Below are positions 9,915-35,450 of a DNA stretch of 53,846 bases, piece by piece; within the stretch, counting starts at the first letter, position 1, and each line of letters begins with the position of its first letter. The notes beneath the pieces are model-generated. The model worked only from the letters and a program-made list of their open reading frames with translations, was not told the DNA's origin and searched no databases. The DNA is taken from NCBI GenBank assembly GCA_003141455.1, contig PLMA01000034.1, forward strand, positions 54,701 to 108,546, given 5' to 3'. Source of the stretch: Chloroflexota bacterium (GTDB taxonomy: Bacteria; Chloroflexota; Limnocylindria; Limnocylindrales; CSP1-4). A program made the translations under genes and the position numbers.

Positions 9915-10763
9915 TCAGAGGGCTCCGCTGGCGTCGCGCGCTGCCGCATCGGCGGCGATCCGTTCGGCCTCCGGACCGAGGTGCGCGTCGAGGTTGAGGG
10001 CACGCACGACGGCCCTACCGGCTCGGATCTCGACGACCGAGATCGCTGCCAGGCCGAAATCGAAGTTCCAGAAATGCTCCAGCGGGAGCCCGAGCAGGAG
10101 GCAGATCACGACCCGGAAGACACCGCCGTGGCCCACCACGAGAGCCCAGCGGCGCCGGTCGGCCGACTCGTCTTCGTATCCGAGGACCTGATGCCGGTCG
10201 AGGGTGCCACGCTCGCCGCCTTCGGCAAGCTCGCCCAGCAGCCTGGTCAGGGCTCCTTCGACGCGGCCGGCCACCTGGTCGAGGCTCTCGCCGCCGGGAG
10301 CGTGGTAGCGGGTCGGCCAGCGTCGCCAGGCCGCCAGTGAGTCGCCGAACCGGGCGCTGATCTCCGAGTCCTTGAGCCCTTCCCACTCTCCCTGCGCGAT
10401 CTCCGACAGGCCCGGCTCGGGGCGGAGTGGGGGAGAGACACGGCCGGCGGCGGCCAGAGCTTCGGCCACGTACTCCGCGGTGCGACGGGCCCGTCCCATA
10501 GGCGAGTGAACGATCGCGAACGGCGCTGCATCGGGGATCGGCAGCGGCGGATGGGCCCGGGGGGACGCCAGGCGGAATCCGGCAAGGCGGGCCTGCAGCT
10601 CCCCGGCTCTGCTCAGGGGCGCCTCCATCTGACCCTGGAAGCGCTTCTGGACGATGAACTCGGTCTCTCCGTGGCGCAGCAGGACGAGGATGGCGTCCAG
10701 GCCCTCGGGAATGAGTGGAGCGGCCCCGGAGGGCCGGGTTTCCCCGGCGCGAGGCCGCTCCAC
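9915..10763 (-). CDS. Histidine phosphatase (phosphoglycerate-mutase-like), possible phosphoserine phosphatase
   Basis: About 282 residues. LVLLRHGETEF gives the catalytic RHG (R30-H31 from this start). SEIAQGEWEGL carries the conserved acid, and VVGHGGVFRVV the second His. The family covers dPGM-type mutases and phosphatases. The gene follows serA closely on the same strand, and some members (iPSP of Hydrogenobacter) are metal-independent phosphoserine phosphatases, so that role is attractive here. Start uncertain: GTG 10763 lies just after the serA stop, while ATG 10811 would overlap serA by 31 bp. A cofactor-type mutase or alpha-ribazole phosphatase remains possible. Confidence 0.85.
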   Translation of the reverse strand: MERPRAGETRPSGAAPLIPEGLDAILVLLRHGETEFIVQKRFQGQMEAPLSRAGELQARLAGFRLASPRAHPPLPIPDAAPFAIVHSPMGRARRTAEYVAEALAAAGRVSPPLRPEPGLSEIAQGEWEGLKDSEISARFGDSLAAWRRWPTRYHAPGGESLDQVAGRVEGALTRLLGELAEGGERGTLDRHQVLGYEDESADRRRWALVVGHGGVFRVVICLLLGLPLEHFWNFDFGLAAISVVEIRAGRAVVRALNLDAHLGPEAERIAADAAARDASGAL

Positions 10764-10780
10764 ATCCCGCGGAGAGAAAG

Positions 10781-12364
10781 TCAACGATCCGTGGCGGCGC
10801 GGATCACCCATACGTCGAGAACCGCGGGGTGATTTCGGATCGCCGTTGCAACTGCGTCTGGGATCTCGTCGTCGACGGCCAGCAACATCAGGGCGTCTTC
10901 ACGCGGCGCCGTTCGCGCCAGGTGCATTGCGCTGATGTTCACGTCCGCCTCGCCGAGCATGAGACCGATGCGGCCCATAGTGCCAGGCTTGTCCTGATGG
11001 CGCGTGACGAACATCAGAGGGGTCGGCGCCATGTCGAGCCAGTTGTCGTCGATCCGGACCAGGCGCGGTTCGCCGTTGGCGATGGTGCCAGCCACGACAG
11101 CCTTGCCCTTGTCGCCCTCGATGGTGAGGGTGACAAGCGAGGCAAACGTTCCCGTGTCCGAGTTCTTGCTCTCGTTCACGGCAATGCCCCGGTTCTTGGC
11201 CAGGAATGCCGCGTTGATCAGGTTGACCCGCTCGGTCGTCGCGTTTTCGAGGATGCCCCGTAGTGCAGCTGCCGTCAGCTGGGAGGCATCGTGATCGGCC
11301 AGGTCGCCCGCGACCTCCACCGTGAGAGTCTTGACGGCGTGGCGGAAGTACTGCGCCGCGATCCGGCCGAGCATCACCGTCAGGGGTAGGTATGGGGTGA
11401 TCGCCCGGGCCGTTTCCGGTGTCAGCAGCGGGGCGTTGACGGCATATCGGGCGGACCGGCCGGCCAGTACGTCGATCACCTGCTCGCAGGCTTCCTCGGC
11501 GACGCGGAGCTGAGCCTCGGCCGTCAGGGCGCCCAAATGCGGGGTGAGGACCGTGTTGGGGGCCTTCAGAATGGGCGAGTCGACCGGCGGCTCGGGATCG
11601 TAGACGTCGAAGGCTGCGCCGGCCAGCTTGCCGTCGGTGAGGGCCTGGGCCACGGCCGCCTCGTTGTAGACGCCGCCGCGGGCCACGTTGACGAGCATGA
11701 CGCCGGGCTTCATCCGTGCGATCTGCTCGGCCCCGACGATGTCCCGGGTCGCCTTGTTGAGCGGCACGTGAACGGTAATGACGTCCGACTGCTCGATGAT
11801 GGCATCGAGCTCGACCAGGGTCACGCCGTGCAGAGCGGCCTGCTCGGCGGTCACGAACGGGTCGTAGCCGATCACGTTCATCTCCAGGCCGGCGGCCCGA
11901 TCGGCCACGGCCTGGCCTATCTTGCCCAGGCCGATGATGCCCAGGGTGCGGCCGCGTAGCTCGACGCCCGTGTAGTTGCTGCGCTTCCACTCGCCCCTGC
12001 GCATCGACGCGTCCGCGGCGGCGGTCTTGCGGGCAAGGGCCAGCATCAGGGCGATCGTCTGCTCGGCGGCCGAGACGGTGTTCCCGGTTGGGGCATTCAC
12101 GACCACGATGCCGGCCTTGGTGGCGGCCTCCAGGTCGACGTTGTCGACACCAACGCCGGCCCGGCCGATGACGACCAGGCGTGTGGCGTGGGCCAGGATG
12201 GCGGCCGTGACCTTGACCTGGCTACGGACCAGCAGAGCGTCGTATTCGCCGATGATCGCGGCGAGCTCATCGGGCGAGAGGCCGATCTTCTCGTCGACCT
12301 CATGATGGGCGCGCAGGATCTCGAGGCCCGACTTGGCCAGGGGCTCGGCAACGAGGATCTTCAC
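10781..12364 (-). CDS. serA: D-3-phosphoglycerate dehydrogenase
   Basis: 527 residues, the full length of type I PGDH. An N-terminal substrate domain is split by the NAD(P) domain (GLGKIG near residue 150). Catalytic residues sit in NVARGG (Arg), DVYDPEPP (Glu) and LTPHLGA (His). The intervening allosteric substrate-binding domain follows, then a C-terminal ACT domain (FVTRHQDKPGTMGRIGLMLG). It oxidises 3-phosphoglycerate to 3-phosphohydroxypyruvate, the first step of serine synthesis; the ACT domain suggests serine feedback. The ATG has AAGGAG 5-6 bases upstream and lies 10 bases after the aminotransferase gene, so the two are co-transcribed. Confidence 0.97.
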   Translation of the reverse strand: MKILVAEPLAKSGLEILRAHHEVDEKIGLSPDELAAIIGEYDALLVRSQVKVTAAILAHATRLVVIGRAGVGVDNVDLEAATKAGIVVVNAPTGNTVSAAEQTIALMLALARKTAAADASMRRGEWKRSNYTGVELRGRTLGIIGLGKIGQAVADRAAGLEMNVIGYDPFVTAEQAALHGVTLVELDAIIEQSDVITVHVPLNKATRDIVGAEQIARMKPGVMLVNVARGGVYNEAAVAQALTDGKLAGAAFDVYDPEPPVDSPILKAPNTVLTPHLGALTAEAQLRVAEEACEQVIDVLAGRSARYAVNAPLLTPETARAITPYLPLTVMLGRIAAQYFRHAVKTLTVEVAGDLADHDASQLTAAALRGILENATTERVNLINAAFLAKNRGIAVNESKNSDTGTFASLVTLTIEGDKGKAVVAGTIANGEPRLVRIDDNWLDMAPTPLMFVTRHQDKPGTMGRIGLMLGEADVNISAMHLARTAPREDALMLLAVDDEIPDAVATAIRNHPAVLDVWVIRAATDR

Positions 12365-12374
12365 GTCAGGCTCC

Positions 12375-13541
12375 TTACTTGGCCAGGCCGAGGGCTCGCA
12401 GGGCGGCTACCTGGGCGGCCTCGACGGCAGCGCCCGGCTTCACCGGCCGATCGAGTTCGATGAGGGTCTGCTCCAGGACGGCCATGGCGTTGAGGATGGC
12501 CGGGACGGTGACGTGACCCAGGTGCCCGATCCGGAAGATCTTGCCCTTGAGCGCGCCCTGGCCGCCGGCGACAACGAGGCCGAGCTTGCGGAGCTTGCCG
12601 TTGAAGGCTTTCCAGTCGAGATCCTCCGGCAGCCACGCACCGGTGACCGTGTCGGAGGCGAAGGCGGGATCGGCCAGGAGCTTGAAGCCCAGGGTCTGGA
12701 GACCCGCGCGGACGGCCGCACCGACCGCGGTGTGGCGCTTCCAAATCTCGGGCAGGGTCTCCTGTTCCATCATCTCGAGGGCGACGTCGAGCTGGAACAT
12801 CACCGCCACGGCCGGCGTCCAGGGCGTCTGGCCCGACTCGGCACTGGTCTTGTGGGCGGCCAGGTCGAAGTAGAACTTCGGCATCTTGGCAACGGCCGCC
12901 GCCTCCCAAGCGCGCGGCGAGACCGCCACGAATGAGAGTCCGGGAGCCACCATCCACGCCTTTTGGGAGCCGCTGACGACGACGTCGAGGCCCCAGGCGT
13001 CGGTCTCGAACGGGACGGCCCCGAGGCCGCTGATGGCGTCCACCAGGATCAGGGCGTCCGGTGCCGCGGCCTTCACGGCGGCAGCCAGCTCGGCGATCGG
13101 ATTGGTGACGGCAGTGGAGGTCTCGTTCTGGGTGAGCAGCACGGCCTTCCAGGGCCCGCCGGCGGCGAGAGCCTCGGCGACCTTGGCCGGTTCGGCGGCC
13201 TTGCCCCACTCATAGGACTGCTTCGTCACGTCCGCGCCGTACACCGTGGCGATCTTCGCGAACCGATCTCCGAACGCGCCGATGGTGACTGCCAGGACCT
13301 TGTCGCCGGGGGACAGGAAGCTGACGATGGCCGACTCGAGCCCGCCCGTGCCCGCGGCGGTCACGATGAGGACGTCGTTCTGGGTCTTGAAGAAGGTCTT
13401 CAGCCGATCGATGATTCGGTTCTGCAGGACGGCGAACTCGGGCCCTCGATGGTTGACCATCTGCCGAGCGCCGGCCTCGCGAACCGCGTCCGGGAGTGAC
13501 GTTGGGCCGGGGATACGAAGGTTGGGCTCGAAGCGGTTCAC
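12375..13541 (-). CDS. Class V aminotransferase (alanine-glyoxylate / serine-pyruvate type)
   Basis: 388 residues. It begins with LRIPGPTSLPDAVREAG, typical of the alanine-glyoxylate aminotransferase group. The PLP lysine is in VSGSQKAWM, TAAGTGGLE forms part of the cofactor phosphate cup, and VDAISGLGAVPFETD carries the Asp that contacts the pyridine nitrogen. GTG at 13541 is chosen because AGAGGTGG sits 5 bases upstream. Placed directly before serA, it may act as the phosphoserine aminotransferase, as some archaeal class V enzymes do. Serine-glyoxylate or alanine-glyoxylate transamination is the alternative. Confidence 0.9.
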   Translation of the reverse strand: MNRFEPNLRIPGPTSLPDAVREAGARQMVNHRGPEFAVLQNRIIDRLKTFFKTQNDVLIVTAAGTGGLESAIVSFLSPGDKVLAVTIGAFGDRFAKIATVYGADVTKQSYEWGKAAEPAKVAEALAAGGPWKAVLLTQNETSTAVTNPIAELAAAVKAAAPDALILVDAISGLGAVPFETDAWGLDVVVSGSQKAWMVAPGLSFVAVSPRAWEAAAVAKMPKFYFDLAAHKTSAESGQTPWTPAVAVMFQLDVALEMMEQETLPEIWKRHTAVGAAVRAGLQTLGFKLLADPAFASDTVTGAWLPEDLDWKAFNGKLRKLGLVVAGGQGALKGKIFRIGHLGHVTVPAILNAMAVLEQTLIELDRPVKPGAAVEAAQVAALRALGLAK

Positions 13542-13625: not shown

Positions 13626-13877
13626 ATGCAGAAGCGCACTACTCTCCTGGTCGACTCGGACCTGCTGGAACGGCTCGACCGCTTCGCTGCCAGGAATGGC
13701 ACCACCAAGACCTCGGTCATCACCGCGGCGCTGGAGTCGTACCTGGAGTCGCACGACACCGCGCCGGATCTGCCGTTCCTTGCCGTGGGGCGGAGCGATC
13801 ACGGACGGCTATCTCTGGATGGGCGGTCGATCGCTCGGCGCGAGGCCGGTCTGCGGCCCGGGCCGGACGAGGTCTGA
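13626..13877 (+). CDS. Ribbon-helix-helix antitoxin (CopG/VapB-like)
   Basis: 83 residues. The N-terminal RTTLLVDSDLLERLDRFAARNGTTKTSVITAALESYLES has the beta-strand, helix, helix pattern of RHH DNA-binding antitoxins. The C-terminal ~40 residues are polar and probably fold onto the toxin. It ends three bases before the PIN-domain toxin gene, the classic antitoxin-first order. The palindrome upstream fits autoregulation. No Shine-Dalgarno is evident; the AT-rich TATATATG a few bases before the ATG could be a -10 box, which would make the transcript nearly leaderless. It lies between housekeeping genes with no transposon visible. Confidence 0.85.
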   Translation: MQKRTTLLVDSDLLERLDRFAARNGTTKTSVITAALESYLESHDTAPDLPFLAVGRSDHGRLSLDGRSIARREAGLRPGPDEV

Positions 13878-13880
13878 GTC

Positions 13881-14294
13881 GTGGCCGTCCTGCTCGACTC
13901 GAGCGCTGTACTCGCCGCGGCCGACCAGTCCGACCTGAATCACCGGGCGGCGCTGGCGTGGTTCGGCCGGGTGAATGAGCCGCTGATGATCGGGGCGCTG
14001 ACATTGGCCGAGCTTGACCTGCTGCTCCAGCGCGAGCTCGGGGTACGGGCGACCTTCGCGCTCCTGCAGTCGATAGGCAGCGGCGCCGTCAAGGTAGTCG
14101 CGCCCACGACCGCCGATCTCGTCCGGGCCGCTGAGCTGATGCACGAGACGACCGAGTACAGGCCCCGCCTGACCGATGCCGTTCTGGTAGCCACTGCCGA
14201 GCGCCTGGGAGTGACACGCGTGGCCGCGTTCGATCGCCGCCCGATCGCAATCTTCAGGCCGCGTCACGTGCGCGCTCTGGACCTGGAACCCTGA
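13881..14294 (+). CDS. PIN-domain ribonuclease toxin (VapC-like)
   Basis: 137 residues, the normal VapC size. PIN acidic residues are visible: D6 in LLDSSAV, E44 in TLAELDLLL, D99 in RLTDAVLVATAE and D118 in AAFDRRP, enough for a metal-dependent active site. VapC toxins cleave specific RNAs, commonly tRNA or rRNA, and are neutralised by the cognate antitoxin just upstream. The GTG start follows the antitoxin stop by three bases, implying coupled translation. Activity looks intact; the target RNA is unknown. Confidence 0.88.
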   Translation: MAVLLDSSAVLAAADQSDLNHRAALAWFGRVNEPLMIGALTLAELDLLLQRELGVRATFALLQSIGSGAVKVVAPTTADLVRAAELMHETTEYRPRLTDAVLVATAERLGVTRVAAFDRRPIAIFRPRHVRALDLEP

Positions 14295-35375: not shown

Positions 35376-35450
35376 GGCGGAGTAGCTCAGTGGTAGAGCA
35401 GGGGACTCATAAGCCCTTGGTCACTGGTTCAAATCCAGTCTCCGCTACCA
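35376..35450 (+). tRNA. tRNA with CAU anticodon (tRNA-Met; Ile-CAU not excluded)
   Basis: 75-nt cloverleaf. Acceptor 35376-35382 pairs with 35440-35446 (first pair G-U). D arm GCTCAGTGGTAGAGC, anticodon loop CTCATAA and T arm ACTGG-TTCAAAT-CCAGT are clear, and CCA is encoded at 35448-35450. The anticodon stem has an A-G mismatch at its last pair and a G-U at its first. Not an initiator by its acceptor pairing alone; elongator Met is most likely, but lysidine-modified Ile-CAU cannot be excluded. Confidence 0.9.

Follow-up and report, generated by a model that had tools for sequence, protein, structure and literature searches.

The stretch of DNA analysed here (the window) comprises 53,846 nucleotides of contig PLMA01000034.1 (positions 54,701 to 108,546) from assembly GCA_003141455.1 of a peatland Chloroflexota bacterium (Limnocylindria; Limnocylindrales; CSP1-4), and it carries a cluster of three genes on the minus strand, running from 13541 to 9915, that we propose to serve serine synthesis. 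The first gene, AT (12375..13541, minus strand; 388 amino acids, aa), starts with a GTG at 13541, in agreement with its relatives, and encodes a class V aminotransferase (PF00266) resembling serine-glyoxylate and alanine-glyoxylate aminotransferases (SGAT and AGT), for which we propose the role of a phosphoserine aminotransferase in the place of SerC. After 10 bp (12365-12374) follows serA (10781..12364, minus strand; GTG start, 527 aa), which encodes a full-length D-3-phosphoglycerate dehydrogenase. The third gene, PHOS (9915..10811, minus strand; ATG start, 298 aa), begins inside serA with an overlap of 31 bp, and its product is a histidine phosphatase (PF00300), a proposed phosphoserine phosphatase of the metal-independent type (iPSP). 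A first-pass annotation, made from the sequence alone, had noted a class V aminotransferase, SerA (10-bp gap) and a histidine-type phosphatase as consecutive genes on one strand; the coordinates and family assignments confirm this, and the gene order is beyond chance, the same order and strand being found in 45 of the 51 AT-carrying neighbourhoods from relatives in the same family (L068-L118).

SerA scores 625.4 bits against TIGR01327 (cut-off 454) over residues 2-521 of 527, which makes it a member of that family, and it has the catalytic and NAD domains PF00389 and PF02826, the intervening domain PF19304 and an ACT domain. AT belongs to class V with 62.9 bits against PF00266 (gathering cut-off 21.5), and this broad family is the only one whose cut-off it passes. 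Its best match among solved structures is 2dr1, a 'hypothetical serine aminotransferase' (E 6.7e-60), followed by 6pk1, a serine--glyoxylate aminotransferase. By model AT is not a SerC, scoring 43.8 bits against TIGR01366 (cut-offs 443.6 for TIGR01364 and 401.65 for TIGR01366). PHOS scores 153.1 bits against PF00300, its RHG catalytic motif (R46-H47-G48) and its residues R107, E137 and H228 are invariant in 24 sequences, and it is a member of branch 1 of the superfamily; PF00300 is the only family that it passes, and it reaches the cut-off of no NCBIfam equivalog.

According to the first-pass annotation the cluster would act without classical SerC or SerB, and a search of the genome that carries the window (G000; 3.07 Mb, 68 contigs, 92.4% complete) for canonical serB and serC bears this out: neither the SerC models (TIGR01364, TIGR01366) nor the SerB model (TIGR00338, cut-off 144.15) gave a match over cut-off. 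TIGR01364 had no match at all in this genome, and TIGR01366 matched only AT (43 bits). Among 13 PF00266 matches in G000 the strongest six are five cysteine-desulfurase-like proteins and AT, while the other seven reach at most 37.3 bits, and judged by these searches AT is the sole candidate phosphoserine aminotransferase found there. Three proteins matched SerB below threshold, namely ThrH (see below) and two frames, 914 and 865 aa long, which we read from their translations as cation ATPases.

Absence from G000 taken alone is weak evidence since the assembly is 92.4% complete, and the comparison was therefore extended to 121 genomes of the class, with 59 from family f1 (12 of these in genus g1, to which G000 belongs), 11 from f2 and 51 from f3-f5 together. 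SerB was over cut-off in none of the 121, by a cut-off so strict that just 7 of the 14 control genomes reached it; a few of the relatives have SerB-like proteins below threshold (G065:C40, 62.8 bits; G106:C116, 64.5; G091:C5, 45.6). Two types of SerC were found over cut-off, SerC_1 in 8 of the 121 genomes and SerC_3 in 7, and G082 has a further SerC_3 fragment (329.6 bits) where a contig ends. AT was counted as present where the best match in a genome had at least 42% identity; at E ≤ 1e-20 AT matches occur in 99 of the 121 genomes, the three extra ones (G008, G062 and G083) having only paralogues of about 30% identity.

Within family f1, AT is present in 52 of 59 genomes, and all seven that lack it have SerC, either SerC_1 (G083, G087 and G110) or SerC_3 (G008, G062, G108 and, as the fragment, G082). 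Of the AT-bearing genomes 47 have neither SerC type and five also have SerC_1 (G044, G070, G072, G078 and G098), a distribution with a Fisher p of 2.3e-6, uncorrected for relatedness. The losses of AT are spread over three genera (g3, g12 and g16) and involve two types of SerC, and in all seven AT-less genomes SerA and PHOS have stayed adjacent. Such mutual replacement is the pattern expected if AT does the job of SerC; on gene content AT and SerC are interchangeable in this family, and the exchange is a natural swap. As a separate observation, the genomes of family f2 (G011, G023, G056, G074, G080, G093, G101, G105, G111, G113 and G116) are small, 1.0-1.2 Mb, with AT in 0 of 11 and SerC_3 in only four, and the remaining seven may obtain serine from outside or make it by another route.

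The linkage of the three genes varies between families. For the 51 AT loci of relatives in f1, AT-SerA-PHOS on one strand was found in 45, AT-SerA in four, AT alone in one and AT-PHOS in one (L116 of G089); at the four AT-SerA loci and the locus with AT alone the contig or the fetched stretch ends there. With the window included, the three genes are contiguous in 46 of 52 AT-carrying f1 genomes. The 15 loci of family f4 comprise 11 with AT-PHOS and no SerA and four with AT alone; those of f3 (n=28) comprise 22 with AT-SerA and no PHOS and six with AT alone; and the single f5 locus has AT-SerA. The f4 PHOS has only about 29-36% identity to that of the window, and it is probably its positional orthologue, because f4 and f1 loci share a RarA...TgpA block: 14 of the 15 f4 stretches contain RarA and 13 contain TgpA, both of which also lie around the window genes. 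Outside the class, among 80 loci, most of those from other Chloroflexota (records of Dehalococcoidia, Tepidiforma and Thermoflexaceae) read AT-SerA, and an Anaerolineae record (L249) has a weak PHOS match after AT-SerA; the AT-SerA pair is therefore found widely among Chloroflexota, and the third gene mainly characterises this lineage.

Comparisons with solved structures place PHOS next to phosphoserine phosphatase 1 of Hydrogenobacter thermophilus (iPSP1/PspA; 4ij5), its best match by sequence with an E of 3.5e-18 for the single sequence and 4.4e-42 for a profile of 24. The AlphaFold model of PHOS (predicted local distance difference test, pLDDT, 86.6) gave Foldseek E-values of 9.3e-19 for 4ij5_A and 5.3e-19 for the mutant 4ij6_B. 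In VIA-align it superposed on 4ij5 with the same histidine phosphatase fold, Z 29.7, a root-mean-square deviation (rmsd) of 1.3 Å over 211 of 211 residues and 32% identity, followed by PhoE (Z 27.0, rmsd 1.8). One or the other of the two iPSP1 entries came top in all structure rankings, and the alignment extends to model residue 297, the C-terminal tail included. Unlike iPSP1, PHOS has an extra N-terminal segment and loop and a Gln for His85. Chiba et al. in 2013 reportedly found that both the C-terminal tail and His85 matter for the phosphoserine activity of iPSP1. Family f1 has a conserved -GAL at the end of the PHOS tail (window 9915-9950; 34 of 47 sequences) and f4 has -PLAL (9 of 11); the tail possibly forms a lid over the active site. 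The C-terminal motif N-x3-H-L was dropped as an iPSP1 diagnostic, a paralogue elsewhere in the genome (L020) also reading N-D-V-S-H-L. The label 'iPSP-type' given to PHOS in the first-pass annotation thus holds for the fold and the nearest solved relative but not for the specificity residue, and from sequence and model we infer that PHOS works like an iPSP, though we do not class it as a strict member of that family.

Taken together, our data give us high confidence that the three genes form a single operon that serves the phosphorylated serine pathway and in which two enzymes are substitutes, a reading supported by the linkage of AT, SerA and PHOS across families, where each possible pair occurs. 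The genes would be co-transcribed; SerA would convert 3-phosphoglycerate to phosphohydroxypyruvate, AT in place of SerC would turn this into O-phosphoserine with glutamate or another amino donor, and PHOS in place of SerB would remove the phosphate. The serine-pathway reading had been put forward in the first-pass annotation, and what now supports it is comparison, that is SerB in 0 of 121 genomes, the exchange of AT and SerC and the pairwise linkage, with AT and PHOS assigned predicted activities.

Several points weigh against this reading. Family f3 (loci L135-L162) has AT-SerA but no match to PHOS, and SerB is over cut-off nowhere in the class. The SerB cut-off is strict, as the control genomes show, G000 is only 92% complete, and the genome counts are not independent owing to relatedness. 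AT lies far under all curated aminotransferase models, the best being BhcA (NF045640, L-aspartate--glyoxylate; 302.3 bits, cut-off 650), and judged by sequence a glyoxylate role for it is open. PHOS scores 85.1 bits against the NCBIfam PspA model (NF045917), below its cut-off of 350, and the Gln at the position of iPSP1 His85 is found in 43 of 47 f1 and 10 of 11 f4 sequences, with one f1 sequence having His. Finally, G000 has another candidate for the phosphoserine phosphatase besides PHOS: no dedicated serB and serC over cut-off lie elsewhere in the genome, the situation that the first-pass annotation had anticipated, but ThrH, of a family with phosphoserine phosphatase activity, is encoded elsewhere.

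This ThrH is encoded on contig C24 and passes two curated cut-offs, with 299.6 bits against NF010109 (cut-off 133) and 291.9 against TIGR02137 (cut-off 223.4), which places it in that family. It matches 1rku, ThrH of Pseudomonas aeruginosa, with an E of 6.3e-76. ThrH occurs in all 12 genomes of genus g1 and in 0 of the other 109, while ThrB is over cut-off in 0 of the 12 and in 89 of the 109; thrB was thus not found in the genus by the ThrB model, other homoserine kinase types (TIGR00938, TIGR02535 and shikimate-kinase-like) not having been searched for. Loci with hom-thrC were compared between genus g1 (nine of its 12 genomes) and the rest of f1 (12 of 47 genomes), the genomes being picked for usable contigs. 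All nine genus loci have hom-thrC followed by an inverted thrH, with lysC next in seven (as far as the contigs reach), while all 12 other loci read thrC-thrB...lysC, with hom ahead in 11 and no hom match in L282. In G000 the locus (L182 on C24, 7059-10316) has hom-thrC and then the inverted thrH at the position where the relatives have thrB. Because thrH is confined to the genus and sits at the thrB position, and thrB was not found there, a replacement of ThrB by ThrH at this very site is most likely, as far as gene content and order can tell.

That ThrH is the working phosphoserine phosphatase, PHOS having another substrate and merely travelling with serA, is the alternative that survives best, and we regard it as unlikely. 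It draws on the curated family membership, on the resemblance to the P. aeruginosa enzyme and on the Gln of PHOS at His85. Price et al. 2018 (PMC5764234) credit the P. aeruginosa enzyme with phosphoserine phosphatase activity and cite Singh et al. 2004, whose title names the reaction as that of a phosphoserine:homoserine phosphotransferase. The enzyme of genus g1 could also hydrolyse phosphoserine and hence be a rival for PHOS within the genus; it is no rival in the rest of family f1, being absent there. Against the alternative stand the family-wide SerA-PHOS linkage set beside a ThrH confined to one genus, the place of thrH inside the hom-thrC locus and the retention of PHOS in the genus despite ThrH; distribution and position of ThrH point to threonine synthesis.

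Quite unlikely, in our view, is the possibility that PHOS is a generic phosphatase resembling cofactor-dependent phosphoglycerate mutase (dPGM) whose substrate is some other metabolite, such as a derivative of 3-phosphoglycerate or alpha-ribazole phosphate. The PF00300 superfamily is broad, structures of PhoE, a glucosyl-3-phosphoglycerate phosphatase and a riboflavin-pathway phosphatase come close behind iPSP1, and PHOS reaches no equivalog cut-off; yet iPSP1 comes first in both sequence and fold comparisons, and three different gene arrangements join PHOS to AT, SerA or both. Very unlikely is a role of AT as an alanine-, serine- or aspartate-glyoxylate aminotransferase for glycine synthesis or glyoxylate disposal, placed near serA since serine and glycine are linked: BhcA is its top NCBIfam model and many AGT and SGAT enzymes are among its relatives of known structure, but the swap with SerC in f1 and the lack of another phosphoserine aminotransferase candidate among the class V proteins of G000 speak against it, although AT may have dual specificity. 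The fold of AT would not tell phosphohydroxypyruvate and glyoxylate apart as substrates.

With the serine operon as the preferred reading, genus g1 would have an additional branch, in which part of the phosphoserine would probably be diverted by ThrH, its phosphate passing to homoserine for threonine and serine being released. We lean towards a model in which ThrH, acting for ThrB at the latter's own locus, takes the phosphate from O-phosphoserine made by the operon and not directly from ATP. Each phosphohomoserine formed would release one serine, threonine synthesis would be coupled stoichiometrically to that of serine, and PHOS would serve only the serine demand left over.

Around the operon, the window holds divergently, at 13626-14294 on the plus strand, an RHH-type (ribbon-helix-helix; PF01402) gene and then a PIN-domain gene (PF01850), a VapBC-like pair. 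A start of AT farther upstream (to 13802) is open in frame, and we rejected it: the extension is unconserved and overlaps the divergent RHH gene, and the N-termini of the relatives align from VNRFEPNLRIPGPT onward. Rfam gave no riboswitch in the whole window, its sole RNA match being a tRNA at 35376-35447; a promoter scan found nothing, and the one terminator-like site was no better than those in shuffled sequences. In two relatives the operon SerA is short (about 310-320 aa; L090 5720-6679 of G020, and L113 of G085), the L090 protein having PF00389 and PF02826 without the intervening or ACT domain, which suggests that feedback control has been lost in these two.

Parts of this arrangement are known from other bacteria. 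For human gut bacteria, Ashniev et al. 2022 (PMC9026213) predict that PF00266 proteins encoded in serA operons stand in for SerC, and that in Peptoniphilus a PF00300 protein beside serA, 32% identical to the Hydrogenobacter enzyme, stands in for SerB. The SerC3-SerA and SerB2-SerA clusters described there resemble the present one in having a PF00266 or a PF00300 substitute with serA; unlike here, section 3.2 of that paper presents no operon in which substitutes of both families are joined with serA. In Synechocystis, P74281 is a characterised phosphoserine transaminase of PF00266 (Klemke et al. 2015, as cited in PMC9026213), and Slr1124 (slr1124), annotated as a phosphoglycerate mutase, is a phosphoserine phosphatase (as cited in PMC12077085 and PMC11257934); its pathway, likened here by description and not by sequence, shares with ours a PF00266 transaminase outside SerC1 and a phosphoserine phosphatase of the phosphoglycerate-mutase kind by annotation. 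The ThrH of genus g1 and that of P. aeruginosa (1rku) are of the same family by curated cut-offs, the difference being that here thrH stands in the place of thrB, which was not found. The GapMind study (Price et al., PMC7311316) reports unexplained gaps for both SerB and ThrB, with homoserine kinase of low confidence in 29 of 148 organisms, and a narrow literature search on the replacement of ThrB by ThrH returned nothing on Chloroflexota by title.

Each single substitution is already known; what is added here is a single conserved operon that unites the two substitutes with serA, together with a clean natural swap of AT against SerC. Pathway prediction from genomes would find serine synthesis incomplete in these bacteria, SerC and SerB being missing by family models, and the operon closes this gap for a family of uncultured Chloroflexota. 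The swap of thrB for thrH is more surprising than the serine operon, and substitutions of this kind bear on the annotation gap recognised in PMC7311316. If our reading is true, ThrH would be the only homoserine-phosphorylating enzyme found in the genus, and it would join two amino-acid pathways through phosphoserine.

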